Below are positions 35,748 to 39,458 of a DNA stretch of 64,000 nucleotides, piece by piece. The notes under the pieces were generated by a model. That model was not told the origin of the DNA and searched no databases. It saw nothing but the letters and a program-made list of their open reading frames with translations. Made by a program: the position numbers and the translations under genes. Source of the stretch: Thiomicrospira sp. XS5 (GTDB taxonomy: Bacteria > Pseudomonadota > Gammaproteobacteria > Thiomicrospirales > Thiomicrospiraceae). Within the stretch, counting starts at the first letter, position 1; each line of letters opens with the position of its first letter. The stretch lies in NCBI RefSeq assembly GCF_001507555.1, contig NZ_LQBO01000001.1:682001-746000 (forward strand). The letters are read 5' to 3'.

Positions 35748-36551
35748 ATGAGCCAGACACCGGACATCCTGAAAAAAATCATTTTACGCAAGCTTGAAGA
35801 AATCCAAGCCGGTTGCGACCGCATTCCGCTTCGGGAAATGAAGCAAAAAGCCTTGATGATGACCACCTCGCCGACACGGGGTTTTGCCGATGCGATGCAA
35901 GCCAAGTTGGACGCCGGTCAGTCGGCGGTGATTGCCGAAATCAAAAAAGCCTCGCCGAGCAAAGGCGTATTGCGCGACCCCTTCAATCCGGTGGAGATTG
36001 CCCAGAGTTATGCGGAGCACGGTGCGGCCTGTTTGTCGGTGTTGACCGATCAGGATTTTTTCCAGGGCTCGAATGCGTATTTGCAGCAAGTGCATGAAGC
36101 GGTGGACTTGCCGATTATCCGTAAAGATTTCATCGTTGACGATTATCAGGTGTACGAAGCACGGGTCATTGGCGCCGACTGTATCTTGCTGATTGCCGCC
36201 GCCATCGGCGATGCCCAGATGTATGAATTGACCGAAACCGCGCTGCAACTTGGGTTGGACGTTCTGGTGGAAGTGCACAATGAAGCGGAGATGGAACGGG
36301 CGTTGCGTTTGCCGCTGCCGATGATCGGCATCAATAATCGCGACCTGCACACCTTTGATGTGTCGCTGGACACCACCATCCGCATGTTGGAGATGATTCC
36401 GGATGATCGCATCGTGATTACCGAAAGCGGAATCTTGGGGCCGGACGATGTGCAAACCATGCGCGACCATCAGGTCAACAGTTTCCTGGTGGGTGAGGCC
36501 TTTATGCGCGCCGAAAACCCGGGTGAAAAATTGGCCGAATTGTTCCGTTAA
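35748..36551 (+). CDS. trpC: Indole-3-glycerol phosphate synthase
   Basis: This 267-aa TIM barrel performs ring closure in tryptophan synthesis. It has [39 protein letters not shown], the [10 protein letters not shown] block, [10 protein letters not shown] and ITESGI. It is a monofunctional TrpC with no fused TrpF domain. trpF, trpA and trpB are not in the window. It is 126 nt after trpD. Confidence 0.95.
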
Positions 36552-36855
36552 TCCCCTTTCAGGCGGTGCCGTCCGGGACCGCCAAATACGTCATGAAAAA
36601 TTTATGAATTTTCCGATAAAAAGCTTGCAACTTTTTGAAAAAGCGGAATAATACGCTCTTCCTTTTTCACACAGAAACCTTCAGTTCGCTACGCGAATTT
36701 TTAGGCAACAGAAAGAAAAATGGTTATTGCCTCACGTGCGTGTTGCACGTGGCTGGGATTTACTGAACTCAGCCTTTGTTCAGTAAATTATATTTAATCA
36801 TTCATCCGGGCCGCATGCCTCCTTTGGCCGGGTGTTTTAATAAGGTACTCCTTAC
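36552..36855 (+). promoter_or_regulatory. Structured leader / regulatory region upstream of speD
   Basis: This 304-bp gap holds consecutive hairpins. CACGTGC/GCACGTG lies at 36733-36751 with loop GTGTT. ATTTACTGAAC/GTTCAGTAAAT lies at 36758-36788 (11 bp perfect). A bulged CCGG-CC/GGCCGG stem spans about 36806-36831. The CCTCCTT in that last loop is complementary to the AAGG before the speD start, so it could occlude the ribosome site. No riboswitch class was recognised, and no clear promoter was found. Confidence 0.5.
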
Positions 36856-37350
36856 ATGCCTCATTCAGAAAACGTACTGGTCACAAGTAACGACCATTTT
36901 GAAGTGATTGAAAAAACTGCGGTCATCAATGACTCCTGGCCGACACATGACCAGGCCATCGAAGATCAGACGCTGGATCATTTTATTTGCCGTGACGGCA
37001 AGACCTTTGCCGGCACACATGTGATTGCCGATTTTTGGGGGGCATCGCGCCTCGACGATTTGGAATTGATGGAAAAAGCCCTGCGTGAAGGGGTTGAAAA
37101 AGCCAAAGCGACTTTGCTGCATATTCATTTGCATCACTTTACACCGAACGGCGGCATTTCCGGTGTGGCGGTGTTGGCCGAATCGCACATCAGTGTACAC
37201 AGCTGGCCGGAGCGTAACTATGCGGCTTTTGACGTCTTTATGTGTGGCGATTCCGAGCCGGAAAAAGCCATCGATGTTTTGAAAGCGGCCTTTACGCCGG
37301 AAAGAGTCGGGCTGGAAAATATTCTCAGGGGGGAAGTGACCGATGCCTAA
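36856..37350 (+). CDS. speD: S-adenosylmethionine decarboxylase proenzyme (prokaryotic short form)
   Basis: The 164-aa proenzyme cleaves itself to create a pyruvoyl group and makes decarboxylated SAM for spermidine. The cleavage block [13 protein letters not shown] places the pyruvoyl serine at Ser110. [13 protein letters not shown] and FDVFMCG complete the active site. It carries about 45 extra N-terminal residues relative to the shortest forms. It overlaps speE by 8 nt, which indicates coupling. An unusually structured leader precedes it. Confidence 0.93.
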
Positions 37351-38200
37351 AAGCGCTCAGACCTATTTGGAAACCCTTTATCCGAGTTGGGGACAGCAGT
37401 TCGTGATGGATGAAGTGTTGTTTGAAGTCGATACCGGTCACCAGCATTTGGTGATTTTCAACAATGCGCAGTGGGGCACCGTGATGGCGTTGGACGGCGT
37501 GATTCAAACCACCGAGAAGGATGAGTTTATTTACCATGAAATGATGACGCACGTGCCGATGTTGGCGCACGGTGCCGCCCAAAAAGTGCTGATCATCGGC
37601 GGCGGTGACGGCGGCATCTTGCGTGAAGTGTTGAAACACGACACGGTCGAGTCGGTCACCCAGGTGGAAATCGATCAACAGGTCATTGATATGTGTGTGC
37701 AATATTTGCCGAACCATTCGGCCGGCGCTTTTTCGAACCCGAAAGCGAATATCGTGATTGCCGACGGCGTGGATTTCGTGACCGAGTGCACTGAAAAATT
37801 CGATGTCATCATTTCCGATTCCACCGACCCGATTGGGCCGGGTGAAGTGTTGTTCACCTCGCGTTTTTACCAGGGCATCCAGAACTGCCTGAACGACGGT
37901 GGGGTGTTTGTGGCGCAGAACGGCGTGAGCTTTATGCAAACCGATGAAGTGACCACCACTTACAAACGCTTGTCGCCGCTGTTTGCCGAAGCGACGTTTT
38001 ATTCGGCGGCGGTGCCGACCTATGTGGGCGGCATAATGACCTTCGCTTGGGCGACGGATCGTACCGATTTGAACACGCAAAGCGTGGCCGTTTTGCAGCA
38101 GCGTTACGACGCCGCCAATTTGAATACCCGTTTTTACACACCGGCGTTACACGCCGGAGCTTTTGCCCTGCCGAAATACGTGCAGGACGCCATGGTTTAA
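37343..38200 (+). CDS. speE: Spermidine synthase
   Basis: This 285-aa aminopropyltransferase uses decarboxylated SAM and putrescine. The N-terminal beta domain has [19 protein letters not shown]. The Rossmann part has [28 protein letters not shown] and the catalytic region [22 protein letters not shown] lies just upstream within speD. It forms a polyamine operon with speD and the following decarboxylase. Confidence 0.95.
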
Positions 38201-38258: not shown

Positions 38259-39458
38259 TTGAACACAGACGCACTTGTCCAACATTTTGCGGAACAAACG
38301 CACCCGGATGAACTCGAACAATTCGACCGCTCGACGCTGAGCCAGTTGTTGAAGGAACACGAGACGCCATTTTTGGTGCTGGACTTGCAGGAAGTCGAAT
38401 ACCAGTATCACGCTTTGCAAAACGCTTTGCCGGGCGTGTCGCTTTTTTACGCCATTAAATCCCTGGCGCATCCGGCGGTGATTCGCCGTTTAAAAAAACT
38501 CGGCGGCCAGTTCGACCTGGCCACGGCGGGCGAAGTGGATTTGGTAAAAGGTCTGGGTGTGGCGGGCGAACAATGCATTCACACCCATCCGATTAAAAAG
38601 GATAGTGAAATCCGTCACGCGCTGGAATTCGGCTGCCGACGGTTTGTGGTGGATAACCCGGCCGAAGTGATCAAGTTTGTGCCTTATAAAGACGACGTGG
38701 AATTGATGATTCGTGTCAGTTTTCGCAGTCAGGATGCGACGGTGGATTTGTCCCGCAAGTTCGGCTGTGCCTTGGAAGAATTGCCAGGCCTGGTGGATTT
38801 GGCGATGAGCCATGGCCTGACCGTGTCCGGCTTGTCTTTCCATGTGGGGTCGCAATCGTTGTCGCCGTTTGCACAAGTCAATGCGATTCAGGCGTCGTTG
38901 GCGGCGATGAAGGAAATGGCGCATGTGGCCTGGAAGTGGTTGGACATCGGCGGCAGTTTTCCGGTGTCTTATCAAGGGCCGGTGATGCCGATCGACGATT
39001 TCTGTGCGCCGATTCGCGAGGCTTTGTTGGACGTGCCGGAGGGGATTGAAGTCTTCGCCGAGCCGGGGCGGTTTATTTCCGCACCCTCGATGATCGAAGT
39101 CCTGCGCATTGTCGGTAAAGCCAAGCGCGGTGCGCGGACTTGGTATTATCTGGATGACGGTGTTTACGGCGCTTTTAGTGGGCAGATGTACGATCATGCA
39201 CAATATCCGATTACCCCGTTAAAACCGTTTGACCCGACCGGCGATTTCTTCCCGAGCGTGTTGGCAGGACCGACGTGTGACAGTGTGGACGTCATCGACG
39301 AAGACATTGAATTGCCGGATTTGGCGGTGGGCGATGTGCTGGTGGCGAAACAAATGGGCGCTTACACCATTGCGTCCGCCTCGGAATTTAACTATTATCC
39401 TAAACCCAAAGTGGTGGTGGTCGAAGATTTGATCGAACACCCGGAAGACGAATCGTAA
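38259..39458 (+). CDS. Ornithine (or diamino acid) decarboxylase, PLP fold-type III
   Basis: The 399-aa enzyme is alanine-racemase-fold. Residue Lys67 in LFYAIKS is the PLP lysine, SFHVGSQS and EPGRFI bind the cofactor, and GPTCDSVDVI supplies the cross-subunit Cys340 typical of ornithine decarboxylases. Placement after speD-speE supports putrescine supply, with ornithine the likely substrate; lysine activity is possible. The start is TTG 38259 with TAGGAG 12 nt upstream. The repeat at 38784-38793 encodes part of LPGLVD. Confidence 0.85.
   Translation: MNTDALVQHFAEQTHPDELEQFDRSTLSQLLKEHETPFLVLDLQEVEYQYHALQNALPGVSLFYAIKSLAHPAVIRRLKKLGGQFDLATAGEVDLVKGLGVAGEQCIHTHPIKKDSEIRHALEFGCRRFVVDNPAEVIKFVPYKDDVELMIRVSFRSQDATVDLSRKFGCALEELPGLVDLAMSHGLTVSGLSFHVGSQSLSPFAQVNAIQASLAAMKEMAHVAWKWLDIGGSFPVSYQGPVMPIDDFCAPIREALLDVPEGIEVFAEPGRFISAPSMIEVLRIVGKAKRGARTWYYLDDGVYGAFSGQMYDHAQYPITPLKPFDPTGDFFPSVLAGPTCDSVDVIDEDIELPDLAVGDVLVAKQMGAYTIASASEFNYYPKPKVVVVEDLIEHPEDES
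38784..38793. repeat. CCAGGCCTGG palindrome inside decarboxylase gene
   Basis: An exact copy read as TTG CCA GGC CTG GTG. The flanks carry no terminator arms. Confidence 0.9.

Follow-up and report, generated by a model that had tools for sequence, protein, structure and literature searches.

A candidate cis-regulatory RNA with conserved and covarying helices in the speD leader of Thiomicrospira sp. XS5 and related genera

Three successive hairpins precede the spermidine genes of Thiomicrospira sp. XS5, which raises the question of whether this leader is a regulatory RNA and, if so, how it acts and what it senses. The window analysed here is a stretch of 64,000 nt (NZ_LQBO01000001.1, positions 682,001-746,000, forward strand); all coordinates below are counted within it, and all features named lie on its + strand. 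An earlier note had placed the hairpins at 36733-36751, 36758-36788 and 36806-36831, upstream of speD, speE and a decarboxylase gene, had recognised no known RNA class and had proposed a translational switch. The three hairpins were present at these places. Protein models confirmed the first two genes: speD (36856-37350), encoding S-adenosylmethionine decarboxylase, matched TIGR03330 with 130.4 bits (cut-off 75.65) and PF02675, and speE (37343-38200), encoding spermidine synthase, matched TIGR00417 and NF002010, each above its cut-off. The two genes overlap by 8 nt (37343-37350). For the third gene (38259-39458) the general assignment held, as its product has the PLP decarboxylase fold of ornithine/diaminopimelate enzymes (PF02784 and PF00278), but no substrate-specific model was above cut-off, the scores being under the curated value in all five matching NCBIfam models.

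The 4227 covariance models of Rfam 15 were used to look for known RNA families. At gathering score the window contained three tRNAs, all away from the leader. The leader itself, searched at E ≤ 10, gave two sub-threshold matches, both on the − strand, and ten relatives searched at E ≤ 1 gave two sub-threshold matches, both outside the motif. A known Rfam family was rejected on these grounds, in agreement with the earlier note. No description of this RNA was found among the titles and abstract openings of the open-licence literature searched, in a term search that also covered the main text of PMC11109978, PMC8632094 and PMC7266159. Judged from sequence comparison, the speD leader appears to hold a cis-regulatory RNA that has not been catalogued before; it measures about 145 nt, has helices P1 to P4 and ends at the speD start codon. 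That a structured cis-regulatory RNA lies upstream of speD we regard as almost certain.

The whole motif, speD start codon included, was located at 36712-36858 by R1, a covariance model built on 24 leaders (126.7 bits, E 1.7e-26, the window sequence itself being among those that built the model). Three features of the leader go beyond the earlier note: a closing helix, P1; an optional upstream hairpin, P0; and a complementarity between the P3 loop and the Shine-Dalgarno (SD) sequence. P1 is predicted to form between AAUGGUUA (36719-36726) and UAAUCAUU (36795-36802). Between its strands lie the hairpins P2 (36730-36756; CCUCACGU...ACGUGGCUGG, with the core CACGTGC/GCACGTG at 36733-36751) and P3 (36757-36789), and P4 (36803-36834; CAUCCGG...CCGGGUG) follows. 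The P3 loop carries GCCUU (36772-36776), complementary to AAGGU (36842-36846), the speD ribosome-binding site, and these two stretches are the 5' and 3' halves of a proposed pseudoknot. P0 (CCU...AGG, 36678-36705) was drawn by eye. A 5' part long enough to hold it occurs in 21 of 30 leaders and is short (26-29 nt) in the other nine; when the 5' part was folded by itself, P0 could be seen plainly in 9 of the 21 printed folds, and its flanks are conserved in most. Pairing of AAGGC in P0 with GCCUU in the P3 loop was considered as an anti-switch and was dropped because P0 is missing in 9/30 leaders.

The earlier note had named a covariation search in relatives as the check on the stems. A plain MAFFT alignment (A1) was made of 24 leaders, leaving out L003, L009 and L010 (identical or near copies) and L021, L024 and L028 (inserts). 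RNAalifold predicted P1, P2, P3 and P4 on A1. Of the 35 pairs, 14 showed a change of both partners in one sequence or more; 96.8% of cells were paired, against 29-45% when the strands were slid. The second alignment (A2) contained 30 sequences, 29 of them distinct, and since it was fitted to the structure its counts lean towards that structure. In A2, 96.3% of cells were paired (26-45% when slid) and 15 of 40 pairs were changed on both sides, the 40 including the five pairs proposed for the pseudoknot. By helix, both partners had changed in 3 of 8 pairs in P2, 8 of 11 in P3 and 4 of 8 in P4, and the paired cells in A2 amounted to 99.6%, 94.2% and 94.0%, respectively; five of the eight P2 pairs never vary. 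By parsimony on the speD-gene tree, with 24 of the 30 leaders, 34 double compensatory changes were counted. When 3' columns were permuted among variable pairs 2000 times, 2.8 ± 2.5 such changes were obtained, with a maximum of 15. The stems are therefore both conserved and covarying in the relatives. On the same tree 48 one-sided changes kept pairing and 22 broke it, and the pair-breaking changes were not significantly low (22 against 32.3 ± 7.4, P ~0.10).

P1 behaves differently. Its eight pairs are invariant in the 29 distinct rows, so that it draws no support from covariation, and we predict this helix from its conservation. Minimum free energy folds of single sequences contained P1 in 23, P2 in 24, P3 in 26 and P4 in 20 of 27 leaders, the set omitting L003 (a copy) and L024 and L028 (motif more than 200 nt from speD). 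The 181-nt leader of the window folded at −53 kcal/mol, with z = −2.46 against dinucleotide shuffles, 2 of 200 of which were equally good; the computed energy of this one leader is suggestive of a modest signal beyond chance. More than chance folding is indicated because the comparative covariation is strong, the shuffling signal being just suggestive. In the 24 aligned leaders 58 columns are invariant, three of them being the start codon.

Conservation of this degree bears on the least probable of the alternatives, a structural mRNA stabiliser or thermosensor with no metabolite sensing; strong stems near the 5' end and the tolerance of loops and linkers for inserts (L021, L024 and L028) would suit it, but junction and loop sequences so close to invariant would exceed the needs of a stabilising stem, and we give it very little weight.

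In searches with R1 the motif was found in 30 of the family's 62 genomes, namely in every speD-bearing genome of the genera g1 (8), g5 (21) and g7 (1) and in no other. SpeD is present in 46 of the 62. The leader RNA lay upstream of speD in all 30 of these speD-bearing genomes, which belong to three genera, including Hydrogenovibrio and Thiomicrorhabdus. R1 matched none of the 16 remaining speD-bearing genomes, which belong to genera g2 (4), g4 (3) and g6 (9), and none of the 16 family genomes without speD. As these same leaders went into the model, their R1 scores do not count as independent evidence; the placement of the matches and their absence elsewhere do. In the 30 motif genomes convincing matches sat at speD only, at one place per genome. 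Extra weak matches in G005 (30.7 bits, E 0.003 for a single genome) and G025 (27.5 bits, E 0.017) were attributed to chance, and two R1 rows in G026 represent a single place split by an insert.

Searches beyond the family used samples of class and phylum genomes, which may overlap, and strict filters in scoring, by which weak relatives may have been lost. Across 369 class genomes R1 matched G000 and G042, with a weak match in G067 (24.4 bits, E 0.065). The model R2 matched two of the 369 class genomes (G000 and G042) and one of 398 phylum genomes (G000). A contig scan with an exact pattern yielded 96 records, of which R2 scored 11 strongly (81-101 bits); these were titled Thiomicrorhabdus, Hydrogenovibrio, or metagenome-assembled genomes labelled Thiotrichales or Piscirickettsiaceae. 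One further record was weak (L061, 19.8 bits, E 0.44) and 84 gave no R2 match. With filters off, R2 gave nothing above 13.1 bits at the 16 speD loci of the motif-free genera.

The order speD, speE and a close decarboxylase homologue was found in all 30 motif genomes. The 13 speD-bearing genomes of g2 and g6 have speD and speE, yet their decarboxylase homologues are only distant (~25-30% identity) and they have neither the motif nor a close homologue. In three g4 genomes speD, speE and the decarboxylase are all there and the motif is absent, which indicates that the operon does not require the leader RNA. The upstream neighbour varies; trpC was found there in 12 of the 30 motif genomes, within the stretch fetched. 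Since trpC is upstream in just 12 of 30 and speD always downstream, the RNA is associated with speD rather than with its upstream neighbour. Comparison among the relatives establishes the predicted helices P2, P3 and P4 with their covariation, and shows that loop and SD are complementary throughout and that the RNA is tied to this operon. The element has what is expected of a riboswitch candidate: it is a leader RNA, conserved and covarying, ahead of a metabolic operon. Close homologues of the decarboxylase (at least 65% identity) occurred in all 30 motif genomes and in the three g4 genomes, with a fragment in G034.

How might such a leader act on speD? The RCCUU of the P3 loop and the AAGGU of the SD are both present in 30/30 leaders, and five pairs can form between them; a sixth is possible in some leaders only. 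AAGGT starts 12-16 nt upstream of the speD start codon in all 30. In two leaders (L026 and L031) the loop G is changed to A, with which the pair to U is retained. In A2 the pseudoknot helix had 93.1% of cells paired and no pair changed on both sides; the unpaired cells came from a one-base misplacement in L153, L160 and L161, which have an extra loop nucleotide, and from the insert leader L172. Because loop and SD are nearly invariant, covariation cannot prove this pairing, but the complementarity suggests a pseudoknot. In L028, with its long insert before the SD, such a pseudoknot would have to be long-range. As a control, the window's 42 mechanically called open reading frames of 200 aa or more were inspected for AAGG in their upstream sequences; it was found at two, in neither case followed by T. 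AAGGU thus does not look like a habit of this genome, as far as a small, uncurated control can indicate.

Of the translational switch proposed in the earlier note, the structured leader stands, and initiation remains the likely target. The pairings proposed for it do not. CCTCCTT does exist in the last loop (36818-36824), yet of 27 leaders only seven have CCUU in the P4 loop and two have CCTCC. The self-hairpin of AAGGUACUCCUU (AAGG...CCTT) could be drawn in just 4 of 24 aligned leaders (L002, L004, L012 and L033), and in L034 CCTT is too near AAGG to leave a loop. Both were rejected as general mechanisms because they are not conserved.

The earlier note would also have been contradicted by transcription starting downstream of the stems. 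One promoter-like site was found in 36540-36900, against 0.7 expected by chance, and this putative promoter (TTGCAA, 16 nt, AATAAT; 36625-36652, a pattern match) lies upstream of them. A TTG[CA]...AATAAT-like site, defined by a loose pattern, precedes the motif in 30/30 leaders. In all 30 leaders a conserved CCUUUUU tract (36661-36667) lies no more than 22 nt from the −10 box, and this tract could pair with the A-rich strand 5' of P1 or with the SD. A simple consensus scan of the + strand of 36540-36900 gave no terminator-like site, with which a translational mechanism fits better. We consider that the RNA probably acts through translational control.

In the mechanism that we favour, though with appreciable doubt, the leader is a pseudoknotted translational off-switch with a three-way junction as its sensor, and a metabolite from the spermidine branch would stabilise the OFF form. 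P1, P2 and P3 would meet in the junction, where the conserved nucleotides would be the sensing core, and P4 would abut P1. Binding of the ligand would lock the RCCUU of the P3 loop onto the AAGGU of the SD, and the pseudoknot so formed would stop initiation at speD. Since speD and speE overlap by 8 nt, shut-off of speD may lower speE by coupling, and perhaps the decarboxylase too. As the end product of the branch, spermidine is the first guess for the ligand, followed by decarboxylated SAM, SAM or methylthioadenosine. A ligand of this branch would be likelier than a signal of SAM in general because convincing copies of the RNA are confined to this operon. We lean towards direct sensing of a metabolite by the RNA; that the ligand is a polyamine or decarboxylated SAM is a more tentative suggestion, and the odds are somewhat against it. 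The formation of the pseudoknot, the direction of the switch, direct binding and the identity of the ligand are all predictions of this kind.

The main alternative is repression of speD translation by a protein bound to the leader, such as SpeD itself or some RNA-binding regulator, with no small-molecule aptamer involved. Confinement of the convincing matches to one operon fits protein autoregulation equally well, and the conserved single-stranded parts could serve as protein contacts. However, a conserved three-way junction together with a loop facing the SD would rather resemble an aptamer with its expression platform, and we regard the protein as an unlikely explanation. Control by an upstream open reading frame is less probable still. 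The invariant AUGGUUA in P1 would be the start of a short peptide, and translating this peptide would open or close the leader; this AUG is present in 30/30 leaders and its frame ends before the speD start in 29 of them. However, the peptides range from 6 to 55 aa and diverge after the first residues, and the frame shifts because the linker between P1 and P2 has one nucleotide fewer in five of the 24 aligned leaders. By eye, the AUG is preceded by A-rich sequence and by no canonical SD, and it belongs to P1. Attenuation by a specific peptide was rejected, as the peptides, which start 124-584 nt upstream in the 30 leaders, are not conserved; initiation at the P1 AUG may have an effect independent of the peptide.

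A metabolite-sensing off-switch, the reading we prefer, has parallels among known RNAs. In preQ1-II, which controls queuosine genes, a hairpin loop pairs with the SD and a hairpin is embedded between both pseudoknot strands. SAM-III, or the SMK box, found at metK of lactic acid bacteria, is a translational off-switch with a three-way junction and a sequestered SD. The speD leader RNA may work like preQ1-II, and would share with SAM-III the junction and the SD sequestration as a way of working only; it differs from preQ1-II in the downstream gene, speD, and it matches neither in Rfam, the comparison with both being by Rfam scans alone.

In the literature searched, one validated class of bacterial spermidine riboswitch was found. 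It is a variant of SAM-I that keeps the four-stem aptamer and acts by premature transcription termination (Salvail et al. 2023, PMC10853860); 13 examples of it are reported, from Gram-positive genera and from metagenomic DNA. It is likewise a leader RNA of polyamine genes and an off-switch, as is proposed here. The speD leader RNA, however, has a three-way junction and P4, has no terminator in the scan above and occurs in gammaproteobacteria. SAM-I (RF00162) had no match in the window (gathering score), in the leader (E ≤ 10), in ten relatives (E ≤ 1) or in the genome of the strain (E ≤ 0.001), a genome search in which the control matched in 3 of 14 genomes. The speD leader RNA is not the spermidine riboswitch, from which it is set apart by the RF00162 model and by the published description. 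The odc1 motif is also a proteobacterial leader of a polyamine gene, for which a pseudoknot and sequestration of the ribosome-binding site have been proposed. It is one extended hairpin in alphaproteobacteria, with a conserved upstream reading frame of 11 aa and UUG starts (PMC8632094). The speD leader RNA has instead several helices, an AUG start and no conserved peptide next to the main start.

Polyamines bind RNA unspecifically. An independent, covarying candidate at speD is therefore a well-posed test of selective recognition of a polyamine or decarboxylated SAM. Although we would put it below an even chance, the RNA could possibly be a gammaproteobacterial riboswitch that controls translation by a pseudoknot between loop and SD, and belong either to a second polyamine class, unrelated in structure to the known one and sensing spermidine or putrescine, or to the first class that senses decarboxylated SAM. 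The authors of the spermidine riboswitch study anticipate that more polyamine classes exist, and they question an earlier claim made for a yeast mRNA (PMC10853860). If true, the mechanism would show how the spermidine level is adjusted in these sulfur-oxidising bacteria.

Inserts occurred in the P2 loop of L024, in P4 or the linker to the SD of L028 and between P3 and P1 of L021, the core being kept in each. Those of L024 and L028 have short stretches in common by eye (GAGCATAG...CTATGTGATT). The inserts were considered as repeats and rejected: that of L024 matched only itself in G026, and none was found in G028 (E ≤ 0.001) or G000. Three g4 leaders (L029, L030 and L032), which lack the motif, contain a hairpin (CCUCUGG...) with a U-rich run after it, about 85-130 nt upstream of speD. 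The run is UUUUUGUUUU in L030 and L032 and weaker in L029, and by eye the arrangement looks like an intrinsic terminator or attenuator.
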